From Fidelibacterota bacterium (GTDB taxonomy: Bacteria; Pseudomonadota; Alphaproteobacteria; Rhodospirillales; Rhodospirillaceae), in assembly GCA_947472795.1 (NCBI GenBank), contig CANJBL010000002.1, forward strand, positions 62,001 through 126,000: a DNA stretch of 64,000 nucleotides, read 5' to 3'. This document shows, one piece after another, positions 8,656-55,318 of the stretch; positions within the stretch are counted from its first letter, which is position 1; every line of letters begins with the position of its first letter. Under the pieces are notes generated by a model. That model had not been told where the DNA came from and made no database searches. It worked only from the letters and a program-made list of their open reading frames with translations. Position numbers and translations under genes: made by a program.

Positions 8656-11316
8656 ATGAAAACCGAACAGCCCCCCAAGGCAGAGCCGACCGCGATCCGC
8701 CTAGCCGACTACACCCCGCCACCGTACCGGATCGAAACCGTAGAACTCACCTTCGACTTGGAACCGGCTGCGACGCGGGTACGGGCAAAACTCAGAATTG
8801 TCAGCGACCATGAGCGTTCCAAGGGTGTGCAGGCCCTTGTGTTGAACGGCGAGCAGCTGAAGCTGCTCAGCATTGCGCTCGACGGCAAACCGCTGCCAAC
8901 CGAAGCATACAGTGTCACAGAGGACACTCTCACGATTCCGGGTGCGCCCAGCGCTTTTACTCTCGAGACCGAAGTGGAAATCGATCCAGAAGCCAATAAA
9001 GCCCTCGAAGGCCTCTATGTCTCGCGAGGGGTATTCTGCACTCAGTGCGAAGCTGAAGGATTCCGGCGCATCACGTACTACCTCGACCGACCCGATGCCA
9101 TGGCGCGCTTTCGCACGACCATACGCGCACCAAAAGCGAGTTGCCCTGTGCTGCTATCCAACGGCAACCCGGTAGAACAAGGCGACCTCGCGGACGGGCG
9201 ACACTACGCCGTCTGGGACGACCCGTTCCTCAAGCCCTGTTACCTCTTCGCACTCGTAGCCGGCGATCTCGCCCACATTGAAGACGGCTTCACGACGATG
9301 TCGGGACGCAAGGTGACGCTGCGCATCTACGTGGAACACGGCAAGACCCCACGCGCGACCTACGCGATGGATGCTCTAAAGCGCTGCATGGCGTGGGACG
9401 AAACTGCCTTCGGGCGCGAATACGACCTGGATATCTTCAATATCGTCGCGGTCAGCGACTTCAACATGGGCGCCATGGAGAACAAGGGGCTCAATATCTT
9501 CAATGACCGCTACATCCTGGCCGACTCCGACACCGCCACAGACATGGACTATTACCTGATCGAGTCCATCGTCGCGCACGAGTATTTTCACAACTGGAGT
9601 GGTGACCGCGTCACCTGCCGCGACTGGTTCCAGTTGAGTTTGAAAGAAGGTCTCACGGTCTTCCGCGACCAGGAATTCACCGCCGACATGCGCAGCCGTG
9701 CCAACAAGCGCATTGATGACGTGGAAGTACTTCGCGTGACGCAGTTTCGTGAAGACGCGAGCCCCCTCGCCCATCCTGTGCGTCCCGAAAGCTATATCGA
9801 GATCAACAATTTCTATACTTCCACCATCTACCAGAAGGGCGCGGAGGTCATCCGCATGATGCAGACCTTGCTGGGCCCCGAGAAATTCCGCGCCGGCATG
9901 GATCTCTACTTTTCGCGTCACGACGGCCAGGCGGTCACTTGCGATGACTTTGCTAAAGCCATGGAGGATGCTTCAGGCATCGATCTGAAGCAGTTCAAGC
10001 TGTGGTACAGCCAGGCAGGAACGCCACAAATCACCGCGGAAGCCAAGTTCGACGAAGCCGCAAGAACCTACACGCTCACGCTCAAGCAGCATTGCCCGTC
10101 GACACCAGGCCAGCCGACCAAGCAGCCTTACCATATCCCCGTTTCGCTCGGCCTCGTGGGTGATGACGGCAAGGACATTCCACTGATGATGGGCGACGAG
10201 AGCACTCTGCCCGTCCGTGTTCTTGAGTTGAAGAATCCTACCGAGACCTTTGTCTTCACGGACGTCACTGCAAAAAAGCCGCGCCTTTCTTTAAACCGCG
10301 CCTTCTCCGCACCGGTCATTGTCAACTTCGCGCAAAGCGATGAGGACAAGGGCTTCCTCATGGCTCACGATCCCGATGGCTTTAACCGTTGGAATGCGGC
10401 CCAGGATTACGGCACCAACGTCATTTTCCGTGCCCTCGCCAATATCCAGAACAACAAAGAAGCCCAGGCGGACAAGGCATTTTTGAATGCCGTTGGCGTC
10501 GCTATCAATGATGAGCGCCTCTCTCCTGCCTTCCGCGCATCCATGCTCGCGCTCCCGGCAGAGGAGTACCTCGCCAACCGCATGGAGCGCGAGGACCCGG
10601 TCAATCTTCATCATGCGCGGGATGCCGTGCGCCGCTCTGTGGCCGAGCATCATAAAGACAGCCTGCGGCGCCTTTACGATTCACTGCGCGTCAATGCGCC
10701 CTACGTACCCGACGCAGCCGGCATGGGCCGGCGTATGTTGAAACGCGCCGCACTCAGCTATCTCTCGGCCCTTGAGACTGCGGAAACCACCGGATTGGTG
10801 AAGCATCAGTTCGATGCTGCCAACAACATGACAGACCGGATGGACGCCCTTTCCATTCTCAATACGCTGGACGTACCTGAACGCCGGCAGGCGCTGGAAG
10901 CGTTCTATACACGCTTCCAGAATGATCACCTCGTGGTGAACAAATGGCTGACAGTGCAAGCGGCTTCACCTCTGCCGGGAGCAATTAACACGGTCCGCCA
11001 ACTCCTCGACCACGCGGCCTTCGACATCAAGAACCCCAACAAGGTCCGCGCTGTGGTGAACACCTTCGCCGCCATGAACCCGGTGAATTTCCACTCTGAC
11101 GATGGTTCGGGATATGCCTTCTTGGCCGACCAGATCCTGGCCATCAACGCTTTCAACCCGTTGACGGCCGCACGGCTTGTGCCGCCGCTCGGGCGCTGGC
11201 GCCGGTTCGATGAGAAGCGTCAGGGGTTGATGAAAGCGCAGCTTGAGCGCCTTGCGGGGACGCAAGGACTCTCGCCGGATGTTACTGAACTGGTGATGAA
11301 AGCTCTGGCCGCCTAG
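8656..11316 (+). CDS. pepN: Aminopeptidase N (M1 metallopeptidase)
   Basis: A cytoplasmic zinc aminopeptidase that removes N-terminal residues from peptides. The 886-residue length is typical of proteobacterial PepN. The substrate-anchoring GAMEN motif is at residues 272-276 and the zinc site HEYFHNW at 308-314, followed 19 residues on by the third ligand in LKEGLTVFRDQEF. The four-domain layout of E. coli PepN, including the C-terminal helical arch (VVNKWLTVQAASPLP, HPF-type repeats), is complete. ATG 8656 is chosen because the preceding sequence does not extend the family match. The stop codon TAG is contributed by the first bases of a 167-bp palindromic repeat, which fills the whole gap to the convergent emrB. 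Confidence 0.96.
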   Translation: MKTEQPPKAEPTAIRLADYTPPPYRIETVELTFDLEPAATRVRAKLRIVSDHERSKGVQALVLNGEQLKLLSIALDGKPLPTEAYSVTEDTLTIPGAPSAFTLETEVEIDPEANKALEGLYVSRGVFCTQCEAEGFRRITYYLDRPDAMARFRTTIRAPKASCPVLLSNGNPVEQGDLADGRHYAVWDDPFLKPCYLFALVAGDLAHIEDGFTTMSGRKVTLRIYVEHGKTPRATYAMDALKRCMAWDETAFGREYDLDIFNIVAVSDFNMGAMENKGLNIFNDRYILADSDTATDMDYYLIESIVAHEYFHNWSGDRVTCRDWFQLSLKEGLTVFRDQEFTADMRSRANKRIDDVEVLRVTQFREDASPLAHPVRPESYIEINNFYTSTIYQKGAEVIRMMQTLLGPEKFRAGMDLYFSRHDGQAVTCDDFAKAMEDASGIDLKQFKLWYSQAGTPQITAEAKFDEAARTYTLTLKQHCPSTPGQPTKQPYHIPVSLGLVGDDGKDIPLMMGDESTLPVRVLELKNPTETFVFTDVTAKKPRLSLNRAFSAPVIVNFAQSDEDKGFLMAHDPDGFNRWNAAQDYGTNVIFRALANIQNNKEAQADKAFLNAVGVAINDERLSPAFRASMLALPAEEYLANRMEREDPVNLHHARDAVRRSVAEHHKDSLRRLYDSLRVNAPYVPDAAGMGRRMLKRAALSYLSALETAETTGLVKHQFDAANNMTDRMDALSILNTLDVPERRQALEAFYTRFQNDHLVVNKWLTVQAASPLPGAINTVRQLLDHAAFDIKNPNKVRAVVNTFAAMNPVNFHSDDGSGYAFLADQILAINAFNPLTAARLVPPLGRWRRFDEKRQGLMKAQLERLAGTQGLSPDVTELVMKALAA

Positions 11317-11479
11317 TGGAGCAGATTTGACATTCGCTATCTGGCTAGCGGAAAAACTGGGCGGCGAATGTCAAATCGTAAGATCCACTAGATTCGTGGA
11401 TTTCTAGTGGTCCTTTGATTCTAACATTCGCAAACTGGTCCATGGAACTGGAATGCGAATGTTAGAATCGGACCACTAG
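11313..11479 (+). repeat. 167-bp double-palindrome intergenic repeat, copy 1
   Basis: Two hairpins in tandem, each bounded by CTAG. Hairpin A (11313-11391): outer arms CTAGTGGA/TCCACTAG, inner arms GATTTGACATTCGC (11324-11337) and complement (11364-11377), 26-nt loop. Hairpin B (11404-11479): outer CTAGTGGTCC/GGACCACTAG, inner GATTCTAACATTCGC (11417-11431) and complement (11455-11469), 23-nt loop. A 12-bp spacer separates them. An inverted copy of identical length lies at 54042-54208; by hand alignment 18 of 167 positions differ, nearly all in loops and spacer, while the arms are identical. It exactly fills the space between the pepN and emrB stop codons. May act as a bidirectional terminator, or be a MITE-like element with TA/CTAG target sites. 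Confidence 0.85.
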
Positions 11480-54041: not shown

Positions 54042-54208
54042 CTAGTGGTCCGATTCTAACATTCGCATTCCGGTTCTAGGGACTGGCTTGCGAATGTTAG
54101 AATCAAAGGACCACTAGGAATCTATGAATCTAGTGGAGCTTACGATTTGACATTCGCCATCCAATTTCTCCACCAGCCAAGTAGCGAATGTCAAATCTGC
54201 TCCACTAG
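54042..54208 (-). repeat. 167-bp double-palindrome intergenic repeat, copy 2 (inverted)
   Basis: Same length and architecture as the copy at 11313-11479 in opposite orientation: hairpin B 54042-54117, 12-bp spacer, hairpin A 54130-54208, each bounded by CTAG. All stem arms are identical to copy 1; differences (18 by hand count, 16 of them transitions) fall in the loops, spacer and one bulge. The nifS-like reading frame ends five codons inside hairpin A (VEQI then TGA), so this copy lies within the sulfur operon between the desulfurase and ferredoxin genes. Confidence 0.85.
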
Positions 54209-55318
54209 AGGCCGCCAAGCTTTCAAAAAGGCGGAAATGTCGTCGGCGGTGGTTTCCCAGCCCAAACTCACGCGAATAGCCGAGGTGGCATCCGCGGCCG
54301 GCATACCCATCGCCAGCAGGACATGCGACGGCGCGATCTTTCCGGACGAACATGCCGAACCCGCGCTCACAGCCACGCCCGCCAGATCGAGGCGCATGAC
54401 TTGCGTCTCGCTGGAAACGCCTTTCAGGGCAAAACATGATGTGTTTCCCAGCCGCGCAACAGTGCTGGAAAAGATCTGCACAGCCGGGGTCTGCAATACG
54501 GCGTCTTCCAGGGACTTCCGCAAATCCGCAATGCGCCCAGCTTGTGCGAGCAGGGTTTTGGTTTCCCGCGCCGCTGCTCCAAACCCGATAATGCCGAGCA
54601 CATTTTCCGTGCCCGCGCGGCGCCGGCGCTCTTGTCCACCGCCTGACAGGTCGGCGGCAATCTCAAGCCCGGCGCGCAGGACCAATGCGCCCACGCCTTT
54701 GAGACCGCCGATCTTGTGCGCCGACAAACTGACGCTATCCACACCGAGTGCTTTCAGATCGACAGGGATTTTTCCAGCGGCCTGCACGGCATCGCAATGG
54801 ACCAGCGCGCCATACGCCCGCGCCAGGGCCACAACTTTGTCGATAGGCTGGATGACGCCGGTTTCGTTATTGGCCAGCATGACAGTGATCAGCACTGGTT
54901 TCGCGCGGTGCTTCAACTCGGCCTCTAAAGCCTGGATATCGATACGCCCATCCTGATCGACCGCAAGGCGCGCACTTTCGGGAATTTCGGCCAGTACAGA
55001 CGCATGTTCCACACCGGAGGCCAGAACGGCCGAGCATCTGGCTGCGGCAGCAAGGCCGCGCAACGCCAGGACATTGGCTTCCGTCCCACCCGAAGTGAAA
55101 ATCACTTGCTGCACGGGTGCGCCCGACATTTCCGCCACCGCCTCGCGCGCCCCTTCAACAGCCGCGCGCGCTTTGCGGCCCGCAGTATGCACGGACGACG
55201 GGTTGCCAAAGTCCCCGAGCGCCGCGGTCACGGCTGCGGCCACGGACGGCAGCACCGGCGTCGTGGCGTTGTAATCGAGGTAGGTGAGCGAACGCGGTGG
55301 TGGCGAAGAAGGTGTCAT
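54191..55318 (-). CDS. Cysteine desulfurase (NifS/IscS class)
   Basis: A 375-residue PLP enzyme that takes sulfur from cysteine. Landmarks: LDYNATTPVLPSV, FTSGGTEANVLALRGL, VHCDAVQAAGKIPVD, the PLP lysine in SLSAHKIGGLKGVGALVLR, and the sulfur-carrying Cys in GSACSSGKIAPSHVL, with a loop typical of the NifS/IscS (class I) group. Sulfur is likely passed to FeS assembly and to MnmA. The coding end VEQI is formed by bases of the 167-bp repeat, so the native C-terminus may have been replaced. Located between the Rrf2 regulator and ferredoxin genes; a single operon is likely. Confidence 0.93.
   Translation of the reverse strand: MTPSSPPPRSLTYLDYNATTPVLPSVAAAVTAALGDFGNPSSVHTAGRKARAAVEGAREAVAEMSGAPVQQVIFTSGGTEANVLALRGLAAAARCSAVLASGVEHASVLAEIPESARLAVDQDGRIDIQALEAELKHRAKPVLITVMLANNETGVIQPIDKVVALARAYGALVHCDAVQAAGKIPVDLKALGVDSVSLSAHKIGGLKGVGALVLRAGLEIAADLSGGGQERRRRAGTENVLGIIGFGAAARETKTLLAQAGRIADLRKSLEDAVLQTPAVQIFSSTVARLGNTSCFALKGVSSETQVMRLDLAGVAVSAGSACSSGKIAPSHVLLAMGMPAADATSAIRVSLGWETTADDISAFLKAWRPLVEQI

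Follow-up and report, generated by a model that had tools for sequence, protein, structure and literature searches.

A 167-bp double-hairpin repeat inserted as a unit at CTAG-like sites in Alphaproteobacteria

The window analysed here, a stretch of 64,000 nucleotides from a Rhodospirillaceae genome (assembly GCA_947472795.1, contig CANJBL010000002.1, positions 62,001 to 126,000), carries two copies of a 167-bp non-coding repeat composed of two long hairpins. This repeat has spread through a range of Alphaproteobacteria, mostly at CTAG, and orthologous loci without the element demonstrate its insertion as a unit at CTAG-like targets. The double-hairpin element is ordinary in kind and its architecture is strongly conserved, with both hairpins kept by compensatory change. 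It is very probably a non-autonomous mobile element resembling a miniature inverted-repeat transposable element (MITE), with a transposase acting in trans and recognising the arms. No host function is required to explain the copies.

An earlier note on the window had described two inverted copies of the same length with 18 differences, 16 of them transitions, and a gapless alignment of both 167-bp copies confirms this. Copy 1 occupies 11313-11479 on the forward strand and copy 2 occupies 54042-54208 on the opposite strand. Both have the same order of parts: CTAG, hairpin 1, a 12-bp spacer, hairpin 2 and CTAG. The differences are located in loop 1 (8), loop 2 (6), the spacer (3) and the arms (1). 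The statement that all stem arms are identical therefore holds for every arm base but one, at copy-1 position 71 (window 11383). Copy 1 sits between convergent genes, according to the open reading frame (ORF) calls, and copy 2 overlaps the final codons of a cysteine desulfurase-like gene (54191-55318, reverse strand; Pfam Aminotran_5). The window has 10 occurrences of CTAGTGG where 2.4 would be expected, and eight of the ten are arms of the two copies. Their parts are as follows.

11316-11476, forward strand: element core of copy 1, GTGG...CCAC, 161 bp, between the putatively duplicated TA (alignment of 13 copies; ends from per-base conservation in 101 copies; exact cut putative)
11313-11316, forward strand: left CTAG of copy 1, in which TAG is the stop codon of an aminopeptidase N-like gene, 8656-11316 (ORF; Pfam Peptidase_M1)
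11476-11479, forward strand: right CTAG of copy 1 (sequence)
11313-11391, forward strand: hairpin 1 of copy 1, arms 11313-11337 and 11364-11391, loop 11338-11363 (predicted fold, covariation)
11323, forward strand: single unpaired base in hairpin 1 of copy 1, opposite four at 11380-11383 (predicted fold)
11392-11403, forward strand: spacer of copy 1, 12 bp (sequence, alignment)
11404-11479, forward strand: hairpin 2 of copy 1, arms 11404-11431 and 11455-11479, loop 11432-11454 (predicted fold, covariation)
11414-11416, forward strand: TTT bulge in hairpin 2 of copy 1, inner arm only (predicted fold)
54045-54205, reverse strand: element core of copy 2 between the putatively duplicated TA (sequence, ORFs, empty sites)
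54130-54208, reverse strand: hairpin 1 of copy 2 (alignment of copies)
54118-54129, reverse strand: spacer of copy 2 (alignment of copies)
54042-54117, reverse strand: hairpin 2 of copy 2 (alignment of copies)

As a side observation, the tetranucleotide CTAG is seen 47 times in the window (1-64000), against 237 expected from base composition and 58 from trinucleotides, with 10 of the 47 inside the two elements.

The two copies are not a product of chance, since their own genome (G000; 3.2 Mb, 51 contigs) contains 13 full copies with 79-100% identity to copy 1. Together with the copies in relatives, this count bears out the proposal of a dispersed family and removes the alternative of only two copies. 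Element matches are present in 16 of 73 family genomes at E 1e-5 (some of the 57 matchless genomes are incomplete), in 19 of 317 genomes of the order and in 3 of 385 genomes of a class sample, the own genome being included each time. For relatives the copy numbers are minimum values, as part of the candidates was scored per genome; 107 distinct full copies were gathered from genomes and plasmids for the analyses below. A pattern for the outer ends, allowing two mismatches or fewer, was run on five genomes (G000, G006, G041, G055 and G051), with positions listed for all 61 matches in G006 and for part of those in G041. It gives 86 forward and 86 reverse matches in G041, and a reversed control pattern gives zero in all five genomes.

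Plasmids also carry the element. Matches at E 1e-5 come from Aminobacter, Ochrobactrum and Bradyrhizobium, and further matches at E 0.5 from Martelella, Agrobacterium, Rhizobium, Sphingobium, Roseibium, Labrenzia and Jiella. The architecture is the same in the copies read from five of these genera, Agrobacterium, Martelella, Rhizobium, Sphingobium and Roseibium. Matches of 26 bp in a plasmid of the cyanobacterium Gloeothece were discarded as chance, and a phage collection searched for carriage of the element gave zero matches at E 1e-5. Separately, the exact 15-mer GATTCTAACATTCGC is present in 30 IMG/VR stretches (L193-L222), a match of the 15-mer only. A Roseibium algicola plasmid (L362) and genome G382 (L224) were also seen to hold divergent relatives with the same plan and different stem letters (CTAGTGTGG... 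and CTAGTCACCC...), which suggests a larger superfamily. For 69 of 100 copies, the closest other copy in sequence is one from their own genome; genome-specific types therefore exist, but are not strict.

The empty target sites to which the earlier note had pointed were found for copy 2 and for the loci L007, L310, L313, L166 and L309. A search of the genus took in 18 relatives, of which 16 have a left-flank match at copy 2, at the junction of the ferredoxin and cysteine desulfurase genes. The exact arm sequence is present in none of these 16 loci. CTAG is uninterrupted exactly at the junction in six (G058, G049, G060, G055, G046 and G057), and the other junction tetranucleotides are CCAG in six, CAAG in three and TCAA in one. 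The alignment is doubtful for two of the CCAG relatives, G052 and G044, the latter having approximately 1.2 kb of other sequence there. The reading frame of the cysteine desulfurase-like gene now stops inside copy 2. The protein of G058 ends in ...EAWRPLAASAAA (AASAAA) and that of the own genome in ...KAWRPLVEQI, where the last four residues (VEQI) are element-encoded. The old 3′ end of the gene can be read as surviving beyond copy 2. Copies are able to rewrite gene ends in this manner.

In relative G049, CTAG is located at the aminopeptidase gene stop where copy 1 has its left CTAG. L310, in G006, is also at a stop codon, with GGGTAG in the filled site and GGCTAG, GGGTAA or GGATAA in relatives. 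L313 is at TTAG, which G010 retains in the alignment. The site of L007 is TTCG, and the ten aligned relatives have TTGG in three cases and other letters in the rest; the target therefore need not have been CTAG. Empty sites were unreadable for L013 (at the junction), L141, L005 and L011, the matches of the last two being one-sided or weak. When the flanks of the 107 copies were compared (E 1e-8), three locus pairs were obtained, and both sides matched only for L009 (G000) and L036 (G044). These occupy the same intergenic interval in the same orientation in two species, and the flanks diverge near the element. An orthologous insertion was rejected here, as each copy resembles the type of its own genome; independent insertion at a hotspot or homogenisation is considered instead.

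Folded as single-stranded DNA, copy 1 forms two long hairpins at -48.7 kcal/mol, against -15.75 (standard deviation 2.87) in 200 shuffles (z -11.5), in agreement with the earlier description of two long hairpins within CTAG joined by a 12-bp spacer. Each hairpin is 76-79 nt in length with a CTAG foot, and CTAGTGG...ACATTCGC is common to all four arms. In the alignment of 13 copies the outer arms form terminal inverted repeats, CTAGTGGAGC... and CTAGTGGTCC.... The inner arms have about three extra bases that are lacking in the outer arms, and the hairpins therefore follow a single plan in opposite orientations, the bulge being one-sided and facing the spacer. This bulge is absent from hairpin 2 in 3 of the 107 copies. 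GANTC, a CcrM-type site, occurs in the hairpin-2 arms (the inner arm in 91 of 107 copies, the other arm in 82), in the spacer in 47 and in the loops in 5.

Covariation was examined in 24 copies picked across lineages. Pairing is retained in 96.7% of cells, and 30 of 50 pairs have changed on both sides, compared with 10.6 in shuffles. Compensatory cells number 96 (25.8 in shuffles), and the maxima in slid controls are 8 pairs and 13 cells; the shuffles ignore relatedness, while the slid controls retain it. The proposal of conserved arms and free loops is supported across copies. In the own genome, copies diverge pairwise by a mean of 0.34 in the loops, compared with 0.04 in the arms, a ratio of 8.1 over all pairs. 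The corresponding ratios are 10.3 in G055, 7.5 in G051, 3.6 in G041, 3.5 in G006 and 2.7 in G044. It had also been suggested that deamination in extruded cruciforms produced transitions limited to the loops. Across all pairs of the 13 copies, transitions exceed transversions both in loops (777 to 513) and in arms (189 to 102), so a loop-specific process is not needed, and the 16 of 18 transitions are a peculiarity of one copy pair.

The ends of the element were located by the conservation of each boundary base in 101 of the 107 copies, six out-of-register copies being left out (L296, L043, L156, L161, L167 and L163). The base adjoining the element departs from CTAG in only 2 copies on the left and 3 on the right, and the outer three bases depart in 14, 14 and 26 (left) and 15, 13 and 9 (right). 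This step in conservation supports the ends GTGG...CCAC that had been proposed. The simplest reading of these letters is that the ends lie beside a duplicated TA within a CTAG-like target. Such a duplication, of TA as in the earlier proposal or of CTAG, would be the best reading of the CTAG that stands at the empty site and flanks copy 2 at either end. Equal boundaries other than CTAG are found on both sides of three copies (L049, L148 and L309), compared with 1.1 expected by chance. Between the left and right boundaries of 103 copies there are 331 agreeing positions, where permutations give 320 (p 0.004); at single positions the excess is confined to the second base (p 0.003; others p 0.12 to 1). 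The permutations of boundaries ignore relatedness.

The copies are dispersed, short and gene-less (a crude caller, applied to the fetched sequence, placed none of the 107 within an ORF longer than 200 aa), with empty orthologous sites and terminal inverted repeats, as in a MITE. It appears that a transposase supplied in trans would recognise the outer arms, cut beside TA and duplicate it. The inner arms, spacer and one-sided bulges may help assembly or strand choice, leaving the loops free to change. Copies would last mainly between genes because other insertions are lost. If the arms matter for movement only, inactive genomes would be expected to decay evenly, as is nearly so in G044, and active ones to show the contrast between arms and loops. 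L144 and L147, at different sites in G041, both lack the hairpin-2 bulge, and they differ by 4% in the loops and 0% in the arms; a rare loss common to separate sites is taken as recent movement.

Several observations weigh against this reading. No transposase could be tied to the element by searches for DDE_3, Y1_Tnp or the outer ends. DDE_3 (PF13358, IS630-type) has no match in the own genome at E 0.001 and is present in 3 of 14 control genomes. Left and right tetranucleotides are equal in just 50 of 101 copies (47 CTAG, 3 others) and unequal in 51, which speaks against an exact duplication. Pairing between the left boundary and the hairpin-1 inner foot is seen at 346 matched positions against 311 permuted (103 copies), a relationship that simple TA duplication does not predict. 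Lastly, the loops in G000, G055 and G051 are 5-11 times more diverged than the arms even in the nearest fifth of pairs (11.4 in G000), a contrast that in-place selection on the arms would explain as well.

The search for an autonomous partner provides some detail on the first of these points. The earlier suggestion of an IS630-like partner is not sustained: in addition to the lack of DDE_3, the outer ends show no surplus in G000, going by counts only (13 forward and 12 reverse matches, where its own 13 copies account for approximately 26). A TA duplication and a preference for CTAG would fit an IS630 derivative, but copies with unequal boundaries are frequent. In G006, all pairs of ends with a spacing of 0.3-6 kb come from a single contig that carries a cluster of copies. 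A tyrosine recombinase gene (Phage_integrase) at L309 (G006:C34:24297-25456) begins at an outer arm and finishes at a full copy. It was rejected as the mobiliser, since the alignment of element-free relatives continues past its 3′ end into the adjoining gene, and it is therefore taken as a resident gene. Half copies were likewise rejected as the ends of a long autonomous element; no transposase was recognised by eye from the ORF letters at a set of such loci or at L180 and L181, and no family search was made there. As no partner was found in G000, the enzyme would act in trans with other ends, have been lost, or sit in the unassembled part of the genome (completeness 96.86).

The pairing between boundary and foot chiefly concerns the third base (A-T 65 and C-G 15 of 101). 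The first base also contributes (0 of 5000 permutations reached the observed value), and there is no excess at the second (p 0.53) or the fourth. Inside single genomes the effect is weaker (G041 p 0.03, G000 p 0.0015). It could result from repair within the hairpin, from common descent of a C-G subfamily, or from pairing-guided target choice. For the last of these, the inner foot of hairpin 1 would pair with the flanking target tetranucleotide, which is quite improbable. Where the foot is CGAG, the third site base is C (NTCG or CCCG) in 8 of 13 copies, compared with 2 of the 54 copies whose foot is CTAG. GTAG and TTAG sites are represented among the copies whose foot is CTAC or CTAA. Guided targeting would resemble the target pairing of IS608, for which target choice by base pairing is described in the part of PMC5934647 consulted, although the present case would be a gene-less element of two hairpins.

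An alternative to the MITE-like element is a BIME-like arrangement of two REP-type hairpins in inverted orientation, mobilised as single-stranded DNA by an HUH transposase (TnpA-REP or IS200/IS605-like) that reads the foot tetranucleotide and bulge. This is unlikely, although the element has the plan that it would require (a linker between inverted hairpins, a one-sided bulge in either stem and a foot tetranucleotide), and in E. coli REPs the tetranucleotide and bulge matter for TnpA-REP, according to the portion of PMC8266576 seen. The covariation of boundary and inner foot also agrees with it, as does the right boundary of CTAG in 13 of 13 copies of G000 against 8 of 13 on the left, as if the right alone belonged to the element. 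There is one Y1_Tnp gene (PF01797, RAYT-type) in G000, at L031 (G000:C2:163376-163702), but it is flanked by a different inverted repeat with GTCCCTGG/CCAGGGAC and was rejected as the partner. Where the earlier note had left the choice between a MITE and a REP-like family, the dispersed MITE-like part stands and the REP-like part is not supported by this gene. REPs are moreover 20-50 nt and mostly GTAG in the same portion of PMC8266576, well below the length of the present hairpins, and both the left/right agreement of boundaries and the identical non-CTAG boundaries of L049, L148 and L309 (three copies, with 1.1 expected by chance) count against the BIME-like reading.

Another explanation is that the host uses the repeat as an RNA stabiliser, terminator or protein-binding site, with arms under selection and only occasional spreading. 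The contrast between arms and loops in G000 and G055 (arms approximately 8-10 times less diverged), the GANTC of the hairpin-2 inner arm, and two plasmid copies between genes of transporter operons would agree with such a role. It is nonetheless quite unlikely. Distribution is patchy, as seen in the 57 matchless family genomes, and arms in G044 decay nearly with the loops (ratio 1.4 in the nearest pairs, two of ten pairs from five copies). For the 99 copies with both neighbours called, the neighbouring genes are in tandem in 50, divergent in 29 and convergent in 20; there is therefore no fixed place relative to transcription, which argues against a terminator or 3′ untranslated region role as the reason for the family. 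No T-run directly follows the hairpins of the two window copies. Rfam gives nothing above the family threshold on the element and only one tRNA above threshold in the whole window. The eight sub-threshold matches on the element and its edges, of which seven are to microRNA models and one is to an Enterococcus small RNA, are read as chance, the best microRNA-model match on the element having E 0.009, far under gathering scores. Lastly, two terminators or simple duplicated hairpins without mobility, for which the position of copy 1 between convergent genes might speak, are refuted by the element-free loci and 13 dispersed copies, as well as the missing T-run, and can be given practically no credence.

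The MITE-like element also has short forms. These were sampled at 20 loci, mostly chosen for outer-end matches approximately 45 bp apart, along with three met before. At 21 of the 23 loci there is a 72-76 bp element with the outer-left and outer-right arms around one loop, the retention of both outer arms being a condition of the choice of loci. Typed by eye, 12 of 72-73 bp have loop 2 letters and 9 of 75-76 bp have loop 1 letters. The 61 matches in G006 include 9 pairs with short-form spacing and 10 with full-form spacing. Short forms would arise if the two left arms, or the two right arms, recombined as direct repeats.

A literature search, which included pieces of the arms, gave no description of the element among the matches listed, judged by title. 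RIME is an intergenic repeat with palindromes in Alphaproteobacteria, and its likeness to the present element is by description only. The RIME of rhizobia is named in the part of PMC2573895 consulted. The nearest described kind, judged by description only, is the CIR repeat of Caulobacter and Brucella (Chen and Shapiro 2003, via the review PMC2229807, seen in part). CIR is approximately 110 bp in length, has two arms with a linker and TA termini, carries GANTC at the terminal loop and is absent from the interior of genes; the part of the review seen leaves open whether it duplicates its target and how it moves. As with CIR, the element is intergenic in Alphaproteobacteria, has two long hairpin arms with a linker, TA termini and GANTC, and is conserved between species. 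It differs in its 167 bp and in having GANTC in the hairpin-2 arms as opposed to the terminal loop. No identifiable repeat of either RIME or CIR was found in 100 kb each of pSymB and an Ochrobactrum replicon.

RUP, Correia/NEMIS and ERIC, as described in the same part of PMC2229807, share a size of approximately 100-200 bp, terminal inverted repeats, TA ends and long stem-loops with the present element. IS630-Spn1 is the proposed partner of RUP. According to the review, TA-ended repeats of this sort, CIR excepted, fold with the 5′ end against the 3′ end; the halves of the present element fold separately, and no partner insertion sequence was found. The likeness to REP/BIME with TnpA-REP, again from the portion of PMC8266576 seen, extends to the inverted hairpin pair, linker, foot tetranucleotide and bulge, but not to hairpin size, the CTAG foot (GTAG in REPs) or a linked RAYT, none having been found. 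Br-REP1 and Br-REP2 of Bradyrhizobium are also palindromic intergenic repeats of Alphaproteobacteria, Br-REP1 having flanking palindromes, while the consensus sequences printed in the part of PMC5082802 available have no resemblance by eye to the present arms.

The element looks like a small parasite that has to borrow an enzyme to move. Its conserved one-sided bulges and foot pairs predict, in a testable way, the kind of transposase that reads it. Its element-free loci and their targets are readable here, on points that the review leaves open for CIR. Present in at least two named orders of one class, it is a structure-conserved addition to the few bacterial elements with self-folding halves.

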